Assembly: GCF_036345915.1 (NCBI RefSeq)
Contig: NZ_CP107785.1
Coordinates: 9,114,001 to 9,178,000, forward strand
Direction of reading: 5' to 3'
DNA from: Nocardia sp. NBC_00565
Lineage (GTDB): Bacteria; Actinomycetota; Actinomycetes; Mycobacteriales; Mycobacteriaceae
Length of the DNA: 64,000 nt
The notes under the pieces: generated by a model
What the model was told of the DNA's origin: nothing
What the model saw: only the letters and a program-made list of their open reading frames with translations
The model's database searches: none
Position numbers and translations under genes: made by a program
In this document: piece by piece, positions 6,350 through 58,319 of the stretch
How the letters are laid out: every line of letters starts with the position of its first letter
How positions within the stretch are numbered: position 1 is the first letter of the stretch

Positions 6350-8008
6350 GTGACTCCAGCTGACCTTGCAGATCTCCTTCGCGCGACCGCGGCGAAGGTG
6401 CTTGTCGAACGTGGACTGGACCCAGCGGTCCTGCCCGACGAGGTCAACGTGGAGCGCCCCCGTAATCCGGAACATGGCGACTATGCCACGAATGTGGCCA
6501 TGCAGGTAGGTAAGAAGGCCGGAACGAATCCGCGCGAGTTGGCGACCTGGCTCGCCGAGGCGCTCGCCACCGCCGATGCCGTCGACACCGCCGAGGTCGC
6601 CGGTCCCGGTTTCCTGAACATCCGCCTCGCCGCCTCCGCGCAGGGCGCGATTCTGCAGCAGGTGTTGACCGCGGGTGCGAGCTACGGCACCTCGGACACC
6701 CTGAAGGGCACCCGGATCAACCTGGAATTCGTCTCGGCCAATCCGACCGGTCCGGTGCATCTGGGCGGTACCCGCTGGGCCTCCGTCGGTGACGCACTCG
6801 GCCGAATTCTGGCCGCCCAGGGCGCCGAGGTGACCCGCGAGTACTACTTCAACGATCACGGCGCGCAGATCGACCGTTTCGCCAAGTCGCTGGTCGCCGC
6901 CGCCACCGGCGCGCCGACCCCGGAGAACGGTTACGCGGGCGAGTACATCGGCGAGATCGCCGCCAAGATCGTCGCTACCCATCCGCAAGCGCCGACGCTG
7001 CCGGAACAGGAGCAGTTGGAGCTGTTCCGCGCCGAGGGCGTCGAGTTGATGTTCGCCCACATCAAGGAGTCGCTGCACGAGTTCGGCACCGACTTCGACG
7101 TGTACTTCAATGAGAGTTCGCTGTTCGAGTCCGGCGCGGTCGAGCAGGCCGTCGCCAAACTCAAGGACTCCGGCGATCTCTACGAGAAGGACGGGGCCTG
7201 GTGGATCGCCAGCTCCGAATACGGCGACGATCAGGACCGCGTGGTCCTCAAGAGCGACGGCAATGCCGCCTACATCGCCGGTGATATCGCCTACTTCCAG
7301 AACAAGCGCTCGCGCGGCTTCGATCTGTGCATCTATATGCTCGGCGCCGACCATCACGGCTACATCGGCCGGTTGAAGGCCGCCGCGGCCGCGTTCGGCG
7401 ACGATCCGGCCACCGTCGAGGTGCTCATCGGCCAGATGGTGAATCTCGTCAAAGACGGTGTCGCCGTGCGGATGAGTAAGCGCGCAGGCACCGTGGTGAC
7501 CCTCGACGATCTGGTCGAGGCGATCGGCATCGATGCCTCGCGGTACTCGCTGGTGCGCAGTTCGGTGAACTCGAGCATCGATATCGACCTGAACCTGTGG
7601 ACCAGTCAGAGCAACGAAAACCCGGTCTACTACGTGCAATACGCGCACGCGCGCACCGCGTCCATCGCGCGCAACGCCGCCGAATTCGAATACGACACGG
7701 TGACACCGGATTTCGGTCTGCTCACCGCCGACGAAGAGGGCGAACTCATCCGCACCATCGGCGAGTACCCGCGTGCACTCGCCAGCGCCGCGAGCCTGCG
7801 CGAACCGCACCGGGTGGCCAGGTATCTGGAGGAATTGGCCGGTGCCTACCACCGGTTCCAGACCAACAAGAACCTGCGCGTACTGCCGCTCGGCGACGAA
7901 CCCGTCACCCCGACCAATGCCGCCAGGCTCGCCCTGGCCAATGCCACCCGTCAGGTGCTGAGCAACGGCCTCGCGCTGCTCGGCGTTAGTGCACCGGAGC
8001 GCATGTGA
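6350..8008 (+). CDS. argS: Arginyl-tRNA synthetase
   Basis: 552 residues, a class I synthetase that charges tRNA-Arg in the cytosol. The N-terminal additional domain covers about residues 1-110 ([13 protein letters not shown] motif). The Rossmann catalytic domain starts with [19 protein letters not shown], where HLGG (137-140) is the HIGH signature. The KMSKS loop reads RMSKRAG, and the C-terminal anticodon-binding domain carries [12 protein letters not shown]. Length is normal (M. tuberculosis about 550). The GTG start has a -10-like TAGGAT 8 nt upstream instead of a ribosome site. It opens a cluster that continues through lysA, hom, thrC and thrB; argS next to lysA is standard in actinobacteria. 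Confidence 0.97.
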
Positions 8009-8235
8009 TCGAGCGAAGCGAGACAATGGGCACAGCGCCTGGGGCGGTCGCGATGGAGCCGAGCGTTGGCGAGGTGGAGTCGATCGAGCGAAGCGAGACA
8101 ATGGGCACAGCGCCTGGGGCGGTCGCGACGGAGCCGAGCGTTGGCGAGGTGGAGTCGATCGAGCGAAGCGAGACAATGGGCACAGCGCCTGGGGCGGTCG
8201 CGACGGAGCCGAGCGCTAGCGAGGTGGAGTCGTGA
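8005..8235 (+). CDS. Repeat-encoded peptide bridging argS and lysA
   Basis: A 76-residue frame built entirely from three copies of a 25-residue unit ([19 protein letters not shown] then VGEVES). Its GTG overlaps the argS stop (ATGTGA) and its TGA overlaps the lysA GTG (GTGA), so a ribosome could pass from argS through it to lysA. The unit tail GAGGTGGAGTC gives lysA its ribosome site. Whether the peptide itself matters is unknown. It is very acidic and Ser-rich with no known fold; it may simply be a spacer that keeps translation coupled. A diverged copy in the same frame and geometry lies between thrC and thrB. Confidence 0.4.
8007..8231 (+). repeat. Three tandem 75-bp repeats
   Basis: Units at 8007-8081, 8082-8156 and 8157-8231. 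They are nearly identical: the first has GATGGAG where the others have GACGGAG, and the third has GCTAGC where the others have GTTGGC. The unit length is a multiple of three, so the frame is kept whatever the copy number. Each unit contains GAGCGAAGCGAG and ends in GCGAGGTGGAGTC. Confidence 0.95.
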
Positions 8236-9650
8236 GTGCCCACCCGGCCGGTCCCCGGCATGCTGAAATCCCGCACGCGCCCAGCCTCGCCGAGCGTCCG
8301 AGCGATCCCGAGCAGATGATCGATCTGCCCGCGAATGTATGGCCGCGCAACGCTTCTCGCGACGCCGACGGCGTCGTGCGGTTGGCTGGTGTGCCGGTAC
8401 CCGAACTCGCCGCCCAATACGGCACCCCGCTATTCGTGGTCGACGAGGACGACTTCCGTTCGCGCTGTAGGGATATGGTCGCCGCGTTCGGTCCGGACGC
8501 GCGAGTGCATTACGCCTCCAAGGCATTCCTGTGCGGTGAGATCGCCCGCTGGATCCGCGATGAGGGCCTGTCCCTCGATGTGTGCTCCGGCGGCGAACTG
8601 GCCGTCGCACTGCACGCGGGCTTCCCGGCGAACCGAATCGCGTTGCACGGCAACAATAAATCGGCCGTCGAGCTGGCCTCGGCGGTGGAGGCGGGTGTCG
8701 GTCACGTGGTGGTCGACTCGCTGATCGAAATCGAGCGGCTCGAGGCCATCGCGGGCCGCGCCGGTGTGGTGCAGGATGTGCTCGTCCGCGTCACCGTCGG
8801 TGTGGAAGCCCATACCCACGAATACATTTCGACCGCGCATGAGGATCAGAAGTTCGGCTTCTCGATCGCCGGCGGCGACGCCATGGAGGCGCTGGCCCGG
8901 GTCTTCGAGGCCGATAATCTTCGACTTGTCGGTCTGCACAGCCACATCGGTTCGCAGATCTTCGAAATCGATGGTTTCGAGATCGCCGCGCGCCGGATGC
9001 TCGGTCTGCTGCGCGAGGCCATCGACAAGTTCGGCATCGAGCGCACCGCACAGATCGCTACCCTGGATCTCGGTGGCGGACTTGGTATTTCGTACCTGCC
9101 CAATGACGATCCGCCGCCGTTGGACGAATTCGCCGCGAGCCTGCGCAAGCTGGTCGCCACCGAGGCGAGCCGCGCCGGACTGCCGGAGCCGAAGATCGCG
9201 GTCGAGCCCGGCCGCGCCATCGCTGGTCCGGGCACCGTCACCCTCTACGAGGTCGGCACCATCAAGGATGTCTCGCTCGACGGCGGACTACGCAGGCGCT
9301 ATGTCAGCGTGGACGGCGGCATGAGCGACAACATCCGCCCGGCGCTGTATCAGGCCGACTACGACTGCCGCTTGGTTTCGCGCTCCTCCGACGCCGCGCC
9401 GGTGGTCGCCCGGGTCGTCGGAAAGCATTGCGAGAGTGGGGATATCGTCATCCGCGACACGTGGATTCCTGCCGATGTCAGGCCCGGCGACCTGGTCGCC
9501 GTCGCCGCGACCGGCGCGTACTGCTATTCGATGTCCAGCCGGTACAACCAGCTGACTCGTCCGGCTGTCGTTGCGGTGCGCGATGGTGTGCCGCGGCTCA
9601 TTCTGCGCCGAGAAACGGTTGCGGACCTGCTCAGCTTGGAGGTGGAATGA
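8232..9650 (+). CDS. lysA: Diaminopimelate decarboxylase
   Basis: 472 residues, fold-type III PLP enzyme for the last step of lysine synthesis (meso-diaminopimelate to lysine plus CO2). The PLP lysine is K97 in [10 protein letters not shown]. Other signatures are [18 protein letters not shown], the glycine loop [19 protein letters not shown], and the C-terminal GKHCESGD cysteine shared across the dimer. The first 30 residues ([15 protein letters not shown]) match the N-terminus of the mycobacterial enzyme as I recall it, supporting the GTG at 8232. The start overlaps the stop of the repeat ORF, and the stop overlaps the hom start. Confidence 0.97.
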
Positions 9651-11052
9651 ATTCCGTATCGCGTAGCGATTCGATCAGGGGTGGTGGCCAGGTGGCGGGT
9701 GGGCCGGATGCAGCGAAGTTCGGTGTATGGGGAACCGATCGTCCGATCGGAGTCGCGGTCCTCGGCATGGGCAATGTCGGCACCGAGGTGGTCCGCATTC
9801 TGCGCGACCACGCCGAAGACCTGCGGGCCCGCGTCGGTGCGCCACTGGTGCTGCGCGGTGTCGCGGTGCGCAACCTCGAGATCGATCGCGGTCTCCCGAC
9901 CGAGCTGCTGACTACCGATGCGGACGCGCTGGTCGCCCGCGACGATGTCGACCTGGTGGTCGAGGTCATCGGCGGCATCGATCCCGCCCGCCGCCTCATC
10001 CTGGCCGCGCTGAACACCGGCAAATCCGTGGTGACCGCCAATAAGGCCCTGCTGGCCGACTACACCGGCGAACTCGCCGCCGCCGCCGAGCGCAACCGCG
10101 CCGACCTGTACTTCGAGGCCGCCGTCGCCGGTGCCATCCCGGTGGTGCGCCCGCTGATCCAGTCGCTGTCCGGTGACCGGGTGAACCGGGTAGTCGGCAT
10201 CGTCAACGGCACCACCAATTTCATCCTCTCCGCGATGGACGAGACCGGCGCGGACTACGAGGTGACCCTGAAGGAAGCCACCCGGCTCGGCTACGCCGAA
10301 TCCGATCCGACCGCCGACGTGGAGGGCTACGACGCCGCCGCGAAGGCCGCGATCCTGGCCTCGCTCGCCTTCCACACCCGGGTGACCGCGGCCGATGTGT
10401 ACCGCGAAGGCATCTCCAAGATCACTTCCGAGGATCTGCAGACCGCGTCCGCGCTGGACTGCACGGTCAAGCTGCTCGCCATCTGCGAGCGGGTCGCCGC
10501 CGGCCCCGGCGAACCGGGTCCGGACGAGGGCGGCAAGGAGCGCGTCTCGGTGCGCGTCTACCCGGCCCTGATCCCGCGCAAGCACCCGTTGGCCGCCGTC
10601 ACCGGCGCGTTCAACGCTGTGGTCGTGGAGGCCGAGAACGCCGGTCGGCTGATGTTCTACGGTCAGGGCGCCGGCGGCGCTCCGACGGCCTCGGCGGTGC
10701 TCGGCGATCTGGTGATGGCCGCGCGCAACAAGTTCTACGGTGGCCGGGCTCCGGGTGAGTCGGTTTATGCTGAGCTACCGATCGCGCCGATCGGCGATAC
10801 GCCCACGCGTTACCACGTGAACCTGCAGGTCGCGGACCGACCAGGTGTGCTGGCCAAGGTGGCGGGCGAATTCGCCAAGCATGAGGTGAGCATCTCCACC
10901 GTCCGTCAGGAAGGGCACGGCGAGGGTGCGCGCCTGGTCGTCGTCACCCACCATGCTGCGGAGTCGGCGCTCGCGGACACCGTCGCCGCCCTGGCGGAGA
11001 TGGCGTCCGTCACATCCGTGACCAGCGTTTTAAGATTGGAAGGCACCAAAGA

Positions 11053-11056
<4 letters not shown>
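9647..11056 (+). CDS. hom: Homoserine dehydrogenase
   Basis: 469 residues. It reduces aspartate semialdehyde to homoserine at the branch to threonine and methionine. The NAD(P)-binding motif is [15 protein letters not shown]; the substrate domain has [14 protein letters not shown] and [17 protein letters not shown]; an ACT regulatory domain forms the last 90 residues ([26 protein letters not shown]), which usually binds threonine for feedback control. The ATG at 9647 overlaps the lysA stop and follows TTGGAGGTGG. That gives an N-terminus about 25 residues longer than the M. tuberculosis enzyme; an inner GTG ([10 protein letters not shown]) is an alternative. Its stop overlaps thrC. Confidence 0.95.
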
Positions 11057-13252
<2,196 letters not shown>

Positions 13253-29018: not shown

Positions 29019-29612
29019 GTGAGTGTGCATTTGACGCGGATCTACACGCGTACCGGGGACGACGGAACCACCGGGCTCAGCGATTTCTCGCGGGTGGCCA
29101 AGACCGATCCCCGATTGGTCGCTTACGCCGACTGTGACGAGACGAACGCCGCCATCGGCGTGGCCGTCGCGCTCGGGGATCCCGCACCGGAGTTGCTGAC
29201 GGTGCTGCGTCAGGTGCAGAACGACTTGTTCGACGCCGGCGCGGATCTGTCTACCCCGGTTGTCGAGGAGCCGAAATATCCGCCGCTGCGGATCAGCCAG
29301 GCCTACATCGACCGCCTCGAAGGCTGGTGCGATGAGTTCAATGCCGAACTGCCGGCACTGAATTCGTTCATCCTGCCCGGCGGCACGCCATTGGCCGCCC
29401 TGCTGCACACCGCTCGCACGGTGGCGCGGCGCGCCGAGCGTTCCGCATGGGCCGCCGTCGAGGCCCATCCGGACGACACGAATATCCTTCCGGCGAAATA
29501 CTTGAACCGCCTGTCCGATCTGCTCTTCATCCTCAGTCGTGTCGCCAACCCGGGCGGAGACGTGTTGTGGAAGCCGGGCGGCGACCACAACACTCAGAAC
29601 CTGGACAACTGA
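29019..29612 (+). CDS. Cob(I)yrinic acid a,c-diamide adenosyltransferase, PduO type
   Basis: 197 residues. It transfers the adenosyl group of ATP to cob(I)alamin, making coenzyme B12 for enzymes such as methylmalonyl-CoA mutase. The ATP-binding N-terminal motif is YTRTGDDGTTGLSDFSRVAKTDPR, then YADCDETNAAIGVAV, and the C-terminal catalytic RTVARRAERSAW and LNRLSDLLFILSR. GTG at 29019 (a second GTG lies 6 bases later). A 27-bp tandem duplication covers its stop codon. The link to methylmalonyl-CoA epimerase at 40.2 kb is metabolic, not an operon. Confidence 0.93.
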   Translation: MSVHLTRIYTRTGDDGTTGLSDFSRVAKTDPRLVAYADCDETNAAIGVAVALGDPAPELLTVLRQVQNDLFDAGADLSTPVVEEPKYPPLRISQAYIDRLEGWCDEFNAELPALNSFILPGGTPLAALLHTARTVARRAERSAWAAVEAHPDDTNILPAKYLNRLSDLLFILSRVANPGGDVLWKPGGDHNTQNLDN

Positions 29613-29661
29613 TTTCGTGCGAACATGGGTAACGACTGATTTCGTGTGAACATGGGTAACT
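29608..29661 (+). repeat. 27-bp tandem duplication across the adenosyltransferase stop
   Basis: Copy 1 at 29608-29634 and copy 2 at 29635-29661, core CTGATTTCGTG then GAACATGGGTAAC, differing at two positions. The TGA stop lies in the first copy, so the protein is not changed. Possibly the start of a mobile or regulatory element, or simple slippage. Confidence 0.85.
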
Positions 29662-56945: not shown

Positions 56946-58319
56946 TCAACTCAGAAATGTTGTCGGAATCGCGGGCTCCCCATCCGACAGTTTCAGGCCC
57001 TCCCACGGCAGGCTGACCAACCCGCGCGAGACCAATTTCCGGCTGTCCGCGAGCGTGGCCACGCCATCGACCGGCTCGCCGCCGCGCACCAGCGGCACCA
57101 ACAGCTCGCGCGCCTCGAATCCGTTGGCGGCGGGCGGAGTCCCGAGGGCCGGGTAAACGATCTCCTCGACCACGGTGCCGGTTCGGCGCGCCAACCGAAC
57201 CGCCTTCTTGGTGCCCCCGCGCGACTCCTTGTGACTGCTGCGCTTGGCGACCGGCAGCCCGTCCACTTCGACCAGCTTGTAGACCATGCCCGCGGTTGGC
57301 GCACCGGATCCGGTGACCAGCGAGGTGCCGACGCCATAGGCATCGACGGGTTCGGCGCGCAGTGCGGCGATCGAGTACTCGTCGAGATCGCCGGAGACCA
57401 CGATGCGGGTGTTGGTCGCGCCGAGTCGGTCGAGTTGGTCGCGCACCTGCCTGGCCAGCACGCCGAGATCACCGGAATCGATACGCACACCGCCCAATTC
57501 GGGCCCGGCGACCTCGATGGCGGTGGCCACGCCCTGGGTGATGTCGAAGGTGTCGACCAACAGCGTGGTGCCGATGCCGAGCGCCTCGATCTGACTGCGG
57601 AACGCGGCCGCCTCGTGCGCGCCGTCGGCGGCACTGTGCAGCAGGGTGAACGCGTGCGCGCTGGTACCCGCGCCCGGCACGCCGAAGCGGCGCACCGCCT
57701 CCAGATTCGAGGTCGCGTCGAAGCCGGCCAGATATGCGGCGCGCGAACTGGCCGGCGCGGCGAGTTCGTGGGTGCGGCGCGAGCCCATCTCGATCATGCG
57801 GCGGCCCGCGGCCGCGCTCACCATGCGGGCCGCGGCCGAGGCGATCGCGCTGTCGTGATTGAGAACCGATAGGGCCAGAGTCTCCAGCAGGACGCATTCG
57901 GCGAAGCTGCCCCGGACCGAAAGGATCGGGGAGCCCGGGAAATACAGCTCGCCCTCGGCATAGCCGTCGATATCGCCGGTGAAGCGGTAGTCGCGCAGCC
58001 ATTCGACGGTCTTCGCGTCCAGGAAGCCCGCCGCGATCGCCAGCTCCGGTTCCTCGAAACGGAACTGCGTCAGCGCCTCGAGTAGTCGGCCGGTGCCCGC
58101 GACCACGCCGTAGCGGCGACCGTGGGGCAAGCGTCGGGCAAACACCTCGAAGGTGCACCGACGGTGCGCCGAGCCGTCGCCGAGCGCGGCGGCGAGCATG
58201 GTCAGTTCGTACTGATCGGTCAGCAGAGCTGTGTTGTTTCCAGCGACCTGCGAGCAGTCGCCAGCGGTGTTGTTTCCAGCGGCCTGCAAGCCGTCGCCAA
58301 CGGTGTTGCGCACGTCCAC
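56946..58319 (-). CDS. pncB: Nicotinate phosphoribosyltransferase
   Basis: 457 residues. It makes nicotinate mononucleotide from nicotinate, PRPP and ATP. Family marks are LLTDQYELTMLAAAL, FEVFARRLPHGRRYGVVAGTGRLLEAL, MIEMGSRRTHE, AYLAGFDATSN, AFTLLHSAADGAHEAAAF, and VRIDSGDLGVLARQVRDQLD. GTG at 58319 chosen because TACAGT ends 7 nt upstream. The first 34 residues are unusual: two copies of a 12-residue repeat (NTVGDGLQAAGN, NTAGDCSQVAGN) before the family N-terminus. Divergent from clpS. Confidence 0.95.
   Translation of the reverse strand: MDVRNTVGDGLQAAGNNTAGDCSQVAGNNTALLTDQYELTMLAAALGDGSAHRRCTFEVFARRLPHGRRYGVVAGTGRLLEALTQFRFEEPELAIAAGFLDAKTVEWLRDYRFTGDIDGYAEGELYFPGSPILSVRGSFAECVLLETLALSVLNHDSAIASAAARMVSAAAGRRMIEMGSRRTHELAAPASSRAAYLAGFDATSNLEAVRRFGVPGAGTSAHAFTLLHSAADGAHEAAAFRSQIEALGIGTTLLVDTFDITQGVATAIEVAGPELGGVRIDSGDLGVLARQVRDQLDRLGATNTRIVVSGDLDEYSIAALRAEPVDAYGVGTSLVTGSGAPTAGMVYKLVEVDGLPVAKRSSHKESRGGTKKAVRLARRTGTVVEEIVYPALGTPPAANGFEARELLVPLVRGGEPVDGVATLADSRKLVSRGLVSLPWEGLKLSDGEPAIPTTFLS
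58231..58302. repeat. 36-bp tandem duplication in the 5' end of pncB
   Basis: Copy A 58231-58266 and copy B 58267-58302, 31 of 36 bases alike, with a partial third copy at 58303-58310. Unit is 12 codons, so frame is kept. Adds length to the N-terminus of PncB. Confidence 0.8.

Follow-up and report, generated by a model that had tools for sequence, protein, structure and literature searches.

A three-unit array between argS and lysA of Nocardia, probably amplified from a MIRU-like, dispersed insertion element

The region between argS and lysA of Nocardia sp. NBC_00565 contains a tandem array that we interpret, with a probability of about 0.8, as a tandemly amplified copy of a dispersed insertion element, which resembles the mycobacterial interspersed repetitive units (MIRUs) and is proposed to hand ribosomes over from one gene to the next. 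Its relatives are scattered over the genome, end in RTGA and fall largely into one frame class; several of them face empty sites in a related genome, their predicted stems covary, and their copy number changes between species. Elements of the MIRU kind are already known, and what is new is a larger (77-83 bp) and structurally elaborate family in Nocardia.

Results

The array between argS and lysA

Coordinates refer to the window, the whole stretch of 64,000 nucleotides that was analysed. The 223-nt gap between the argS stop codon (8006-8008) and the lysA start codon (8232) is wholly occupied by three 75-bp units, for which TRF reports a period of 75, 3.0 copies and 98% matches at 8007-8232, confirming the first-pass annotation of this region. 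The same is true of its open reading frame of 76 codons, which has GTGA at both ends, so that its GTG lies on the argS stop and its TGA on the lysA GTG. The features are as follows:

6350..8008, + strand: argS (arginine-tRNA ligase), upstream gene (TIGR00456, 397.7 bits), whose stop TGA (8006-8008) lies inside the 5' GTGA
8005..8008, + strand: 5' RTGA (GTGA), holding the GTG of the element ORF and, overlapping it, the argS stop (sequence)
8005..8235, + strand: element ORF, GTG to TGA, 76 codons, fused across three units (ORF list)
8005..8081, + strand: unit 1, GTGA plus the remainder of the 77-bp element (TRF; profile match 8005-8081)
8082..8156, + strand: unit 2, 75 bp, internal RTGA lost (TRF; profile match 8082-8157)
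8157..8231, + strand: unit 3, 75 bp (TRF; profile match 8159-8235)
8013..8019, + strand: GCGAAGC, GNA-loop mini-hairpin core of the unit 1 5' hairpin, recurring in units 2 and 3 (family-wide G-N-A loop)
8199..8234, + strand: predicted 3' hairpin of unit 3, CGCGAC pairing with GTCGTG, which holds the lysA GTG (family covariation; minimum-free-energy fold z only -0.84)
8232..8235, + strand: 3' RTGA (GTGA), where the lysA start and the stop of the element ORF overlap with -4 spacing (sequence)
8232..9650, + strand: lysA (diaminopimelate decarboxylase), downstream gene (TIGR01048, 483.2 bits)

Counted from GTGA to GTGA, the unit at the level of insertion measures 77 bp. At both inner junctions the dinucleotide GT has been lost (TCGATC in place of TCGTGATC), which accounts for both the 75-bp period and the single fused frame. 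The openness of this frame is weak evidence in itself, because most or all of the array can also be read without a stop in a second plus-strand frame (7989-8219) and in minus-strand frames, and 77 of 79 copies across the wider family have no stop codon in one antisense frame. We therefore dropped frame openness as evidence. More informative are both RTGA overlaps and, in addition, the length class, which hold throughout the family.

Further downstream, lysA and the next gene, presumably hom, overlap by ATGA (9647-9650) without an element, representing an uninvaded site in the same gene cluster. Other tandem repeats in the window lie at 29608-29660 (27 bp, 2.0 copies, 96%) and 58227-58308 (36 bp, 2.3 copies, 89%).

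A dispersed family with RTGA ends and a preferred frame class

When used as a DNA query, the 75-bp unit gave at least 41 matches in the 9.71-Mb genome (40 of 92 candidates scored), while R1, a sequence-only model derived from 30 of 36 elements delimited between RTGA sites (alignment A1), identified at least 114 places at E values up to 0.01 (150 best candidates scored). A second alignment (A2) comprises 110 matches with E values up to 1e-5 from 91 sources, excluding L014, whose elements are covered by L181. These matches correspond to 92 places, namely 75 single copies, 16 doubles and a single triple, the argS-lysA array, with element lengths mostly in the range of 77-83 bp. The initial view of the repeat as a device specific to argS and lysA has thus given way to that of a family with 92 places in the genome, inserted elsewhere on pre-existing RTGA. 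A second place within the window, at 12216-12296 (+ strand), holds a single 77-bp unit that reaches from ATGA to ATGA and sits on the start of thrB (TIGR00191). Fusion of units in one frame is not the rule either, since most junctions of tandem pairs among the delimited elements retain RTGA.

The 3' end is complete in 94 of the 110 copies and consists of RTGA in all of them (60 ATGA, 34 GTGA), which is in part a consequence of how the model was constructed. Another 16 copies, including array units 1 and 2, stop short of the 3' end, and in seven, including array unit 3, RTGA is absent around the expected 5' end; altogether, 23 copies, the array units among them, lack RTGA at one end as delimited. 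RTGA is present on either side of 87 copies; of these, 73 show the coupled arrangement, in which the TGA of the element ORF overlaps the downstream RTG with -4 spacing, six are fused in frame with a gene or another unit, seven contain an early stop and one runs on. Their length modulo 3 is 2 in 75 cases, 0 in six and 1 in six, although these counts, as well as the covariation counts given below, come from related copies and are not independent, so that comparisons with shuffles, in which kinship remains, do not represent probabilities. In a control set of 986 RTGA pairs from these loci, with a spacing of 55-85 nt and the elements themselves counted in, 192 are coupled.

A similar picture emerged for a second species (G009), where 33 of 39 classifiable elements are coupled, four fused and two otherwise arranged, with one of the remaining matches (43 in total) lacking the 5' RTGA and three being incomplete at the 3' end. 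Seven matches in G005 comprise three coupled, one fused and one prematurely terminated element and two that are not classifiable. The outcomes set beforehand as speaking against a coupling element, i.e. copies in random frame, without overlap with a downstream start or with frequent stop codons, were not what the copies displayed. Of the hand-over design suggested by the first-pass annotation, the arrangement is thus borne out (73/87 and, in G009, 33/39), and from it we infer coupled translation itself.

An ORF of at least 100 codons starts downstream of 67 of the 87 elements, compared with 1074 of 3925 RTGA motifs in these loci, and an ORF of this size ends at the 5' TGA of 38. Among ten elements picked for long neighbours on both sides, nine downstream and seven upstream ORFs gave Pfam hits. 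At L011, L020 and L030, the element has a length of 0 mod 3 and reads in frame into the downstream gene; these elements may be annotated as N-terminal extensions.

Empty sites and copy number at orthologous positions

The flanks of the 92 places were compared with 800 kb of a relative (G023), in which 13 sites could be aligned on both flanks (14 rows, with L207 appearing twice). Seven of these sites (thrB, L022, L030, L174, the first L181 site, L176 and L015) are empty in the relative and hold a single RTGA, which is ATGA at thrB and a 4-nt stop-start overlap at L022. At six of the seven, RTGA flanks the element or array on both sides in the present genome; at L015, the left RTGA is lost. A remnant or diverged element was found in the relative at argS-lysA, the second L181 site, L186 and L187, and the comparison was not clear-cut at L188 and L207. 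Since a single RTGA at the empty site is doubled around the element here, the unit appears to be an insertion that targets start codons. The R letter is not the same at both ends in 11 of 59 single copies, so that the doubled RTGA may reflect either a strict 4-bp target duplication or a right-hand RTGA borne by the element itself.

Copy number varies at several orthologous sites, as anticipated, although it is equal at four. The argS-lysA junction holds three units here, one in G009, one full and one partial unit in G005, two in G008, a single diverged unit in G023 and one each in two named species. Among 44 rows of an argS-lysA survey, in which a few genomes are apparently present twice under different locus ids, seven (own locus counted) gave a core match and 37 have no intact core; five further rows show remnants by eye and none are evident in the others. 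Between the present genome (G000) and G009, the copy number is two versus one at L013, L030 and the first L181 site, one versus two at L026, L184 and L193, and equal at L024, L168, L170 and the second L181 site, with L162, L204 and L208 unscored. This comparison leaves out the 25 of 40 G009 and G005 loci that have no orthologous junction among the loci of the present genome. At L026 and the orthologous site of G009 (L319), the central unit sequence differs, as if one had replaced the other.

At argS-lysA loci outside Nocardia, the argS stop and the lysA start overlap by RTGA in 58 of 66 cases, as predicted for the empty site. In the same survey, such an overlap was scored in one of 14 Nocardia loci, and here the lysA start more likely lies later, as judged by eye. 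Most Nocardia relatives have a spacer between the two genes and no RTGA overlap, which is why a direct insertion on GTGA at this junction is inferred from other genera.

Predicted hairpins at both ends of the element

RNAalifold applied to A1 predicts a 3' hairpin in which CAYGNC pairs with GNCRTG, with RTG representing the downstream start codon; the inner loop of this hairpin has the sequence GNNA and a closing G-C, with GA facing it. Three of five pair measures for this stem exceeded all shuffles on A1 and two lay within them, and all five were beyond the shuffles on A2 (0 of 500), with 96.9% of cells paired versus 88.6 after shuffling, 112 double changes versus 42.7, and a covariation of 0.318 versus 0.176. 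Versions of the A2 stem slid along the alignment reached at most 46% paired cells and a covariation of at most 0.086, but the version slid by one column has just as many pairs in which double changes occur as the stem itself (8 each). In the elements of G009 and G005, the varying pairs of this stem gave 0, 24 and 0 of 5000 shuffles. A central hairpin has arms that match each other more closely than they do after swapping (z about 7-8).

The 5' end follows the pattern RTGA-XY-GA-GC-GNA-GC-GA-Y'X'-GAA-R'. In 66 distinct elements (19 others with an incomplete 5' end were skipped), the R of the 5' RTGA forms a Watson-Crick pair with position 23 in 50 cases (G-C 33, A-T 17), compared with 33.4 after shuffling (0 of 5000), and similar deviations were seen for pairs 5-19 (0 of 5000), 6-18 (6 of 5000) and 9-15 (0 of 5000). 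Among 42 elements from G009 and G005, the R-23 pair is found in 30 (21.1 shuffled, 2 of 5000), with 5 of 5000 for 5-19, 0 of 5000 for 6-18 and 262 of 5000 for 9-15, which barely varies. In the argS-lysA array, three bases are missing from the 3' arm of the 5' stem, which is therefore weaker there.

Since G.T combinations outnumber A.C combinations in the 3' hairpin (66 versus 8, with the start-codon T excluded and 27 of the 66 G.T cells coming from one pair), the mRNA-sense strand appears to be the one that folds. Single sequences gave fold z values of -0.84 (argS-lysA), -0.88 (thrB), 0.20 (L022) and -2.08 (L160), the first three being no more stable than shuffles, and orthologous copies of the present genome and G009, viewed by eye, offered too few pairs for assessing compensatory changes in situ. 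Rfam returned no match at E values up to 1 for window positions 7900-12500. Collectively, the alignments point to predicted hairpins at both element ends that include RTG and show compensatory changes across copies.

Distribution and candidate mobiliser

In one sample, element matches were present in 32 of the 36 genomes that belong to the genus and in two of 24 others, with 77 candidates scored per genome, so that high counts are to be read as "at least". In a family-wide sample with 30 candidates per genome, 11 of 151 genomes had matches, ten of them from the same genus and one from another. G050, which belongs to a different family within the order, gave 11 weak matches, and a single one was obtained in G055. 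By profile comparison in both directions, the elements of G050 are homologous to the Nocardia unit (nhmmer E values of 1.4e-8 and 4e-9) and share its RTGA ends and size (about 80 bp). Unlike the Nocardia elements, several of them (L338-L347) have 5' stems that, as judged by eye, are fully Watson-Crick paired (GTGAGC..GCTCAC, GTGACC..GGTCAC, GTGATC..GATCAC and GTGAAC..GTTCAC), with compensatory changes around the start codon.

The Y1 transposase domain PF01797 is present in 10 of 60 genomes. No match to it was found in G005, G008, G017 and G022, despite 72, 41, 70 and 30 element copies, respectively, among the matches listed. We have therefore rejected Y1 transposases as the mobiliser, and the element does not seem to require them. 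A full-length Y1 (IS200-like) domain is encoded at G000:C1:8035241-8035606 (L291), about 300 bp from the element L011 at 8035899, a proximity that we take to be due to chance.

Relationship to MIRUs and other known systems

MIRUs (Supply et al., 1997, as cited in PMC12548453 and PMC2734929) are described in PMC2734929 as dispersed repeats of 40-100 bp with variable copy number, used as typing markers in tuberculosis, and in PMC12548453 as apparently mobile units that insert at start codons and carry an ORF coupled with -4 spacing. The Nocardia unit has the same properties, being a short repeat dispersed over many places, inserted at start codons with its ORF in the coupled-type arrangement at -4 spacing (73/87; single RTGA at 7 of 13 comparable sites), and varying in tandem copy number among related genomes, in this case between species. 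The initial impression that no family of this kind had been described was thus mistaken as regards the kind of element, whose architecture matches that of MIRUs as described in PMC12548453.

A MIRU core used as a query matched 13 of 20 named genomes, and a reversed control gave no hit. In 30 mycobacterial loci, it yielded 49 matches, 37 of them with RTGA on both sides, 30 with a length of 53 bp (2 mod 3) and 29 coupled, although overlapping loci enter these counts twice and the number of distinct units is 19. At 53 bp, MIRUs are smaller than the Nocardia unit (77-83 bp), which carries a predicted central hairpin and a predicted 3' hairpin that includes the downstream RTG. The sole sequence likeness is an 11-nt core, GAGCGNAGCGA, with a free N inside. 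In 31 distinct MIRU contexts, its middle base is C in 14, A in 12, G in 3 and T in 2, with the loop G constant and the loop A kept in 30. R1 produced only three matches in the 30 mycobacterial loci (E values of 1.5-5.7), one of which (L238, E value of 5.7) overlaps a MIRU, and among the best six hits of each nhmmer search between MIRU and the Nocardia or G050 profiles, none had an E value below 0.14, with a 17-nt stretch of a G050 element matched at 0.74. As the profiles give no significant match either way, membership in the MIRU family by sequence was rejected: the element works like a MIRU but is not one by sequence.

Small, dispersed, hairpin-bearing units with tetranucleotide ends are also found among the REP/BIME elements associated with RAYT proteins and the MITEs derived from IS200/IS605. 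These elements are mobilised by Y1 transposases, and in IS200/IS605 and RAYT systems the tetranucleotides at the ends, next to terminal hairpins, are recognised through internal base pairing. They differ in this need for a Y1 transposase from the Nocardia element, for which PF01797 gave no match in the four copy-rich genomes, and we know of no start-codon targeting by REP/BIME or IS200/IS605-derived MITEs.

Genes VII-IX of phage f1, as presented in PMC12548453, provide a precedent for translational coupling by RNA unfolding. They share with the Nocardia unit a hairpin near the downstream start and the -4 spacing, but represent a native gene pair, whereas the Nocardia arrangement is carried by a dispersed element. 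No earlier description of the Nocardia family was found in the open-licence literature, as judged from titles and abstract openings for part of the matches, and the word "repeat" is absent from the accessible part of a paper on Nocardia ncRNAs (PMC5543724).

Discussion

It is tempting to picture the element as a relay for ribosomes. A ribosome finishing argS would reinitiate at the GTG of the element, translate its short ORF, open the predicted 3' hairpin in which the lysA start would be hidden, and then reinitiate at lysA. Because the ribosome would be passed on through the element, insertion and later changes in copy number would cost little, and such tolerance may be the very reason for the design. 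At the argS-lysA junction, two tandem duplications would have lost the internal RTGA, leaving three units that read as one 76-codon ORF.

Several other readings need to be weighed against an amplified insertion element. The array may have been favoured as a regulatory coupler that sets the ratio of lysA to argS, with its copy number serving as a rheostat. Consistent with this idea, the junction carries between zero and three copies across Nocardia, and an M. tuberculosis transcript, fpg1, fell with a shorter upstream repeat (PMC2734929). However, the same family occupies 92 places in the genome, 37 of the 44 argS-lysA rows (own locus counted) have no intact core, and nothing specific to lysine or arginine was seen, which makes this scenario improbable. 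A functional small protein with the consensus SERSERTxxTAP..EPSASEAES would explain why the frame is kept, either coupled or fused, in 79 of the 87 copies, but the three codon positions are about equally variable (0.236/0.196/0.218 in 77-mers and 0.172/0.176/0.202 in 80-mers), suggesting that translation rather than the peptide is important, and the 76-aa ORF has no NCBIfam match at E values up to 0.1. We have therefore rejected selection on the peptide; it is probably irrelevant, even though the hairpin constraint acting on the same bases blurs the test, and a functional product seems highly unlikely. Least credible of all is a plain, immobile minisatellite that grew by slippage and owes its frame to the high G+C content. 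Such an origin would fit the tandem copies, the several open frames of the array and the antisense frame, which is uninterrupted in 77 of 79 copies. It would not account for copies that are dispersed yet share their ends, for empty sites that hold one RTGA, or for RTGA overlaps and a frame class far above the RTGA-pair control.

A more serious alternative, albeit still an unlikely one, is that the hairpins serve transposition or act as an RNA regulator, for instance in protein binding or RNase processing, with the ORF being merely tolerated. GNA and GNNA loops closed by G-C are signatures of DNA mini-hairpins, which, according to PMC4686876, are extraordinarily stable when they have at least two G-C pairs, and the argS-lysA array itself contains such a sequence, GCGAAGC. 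Moreover, RTGA pairs inside the element at both ends. On the other hand, RNA and one DNA strand would explain the G.T tolerance on the mRNA-sense strand equally well, Rfam gave no match in window positions 7900-12500, and four genomes for which 30-72 copies are listed yielded no Y1 domain.

Returning to the amplified insertion element as our preferred reading, it is conceivable, if rather doubtful, that the Nocardia units, their G050 relatives and MIRUs form a single class of single-strand hairpins based on GNA/GNNA mini-hairpins, in which internal bases pair with the target RTGA and the same hairpin, once transcribed into mRNA, hides the downstream start. One structure would then provide both targeting and tolerance, with only a ribosome arriving from upstream being able to open the hairpin.

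How MIRUs move and what places them at start codons are questions that a second, larger and covarying family, found in another genus and facing empty sites in a relative, makes testable outside a dangerous pathogen. This family provides a structural model with named base pairs as well as an explicit prediction of coupling for lysA, thrB and other housekeeping genes. It also carries a warning for annotation, as the ORF of an element can be mistaken for an N-terminal extension of a true gene.
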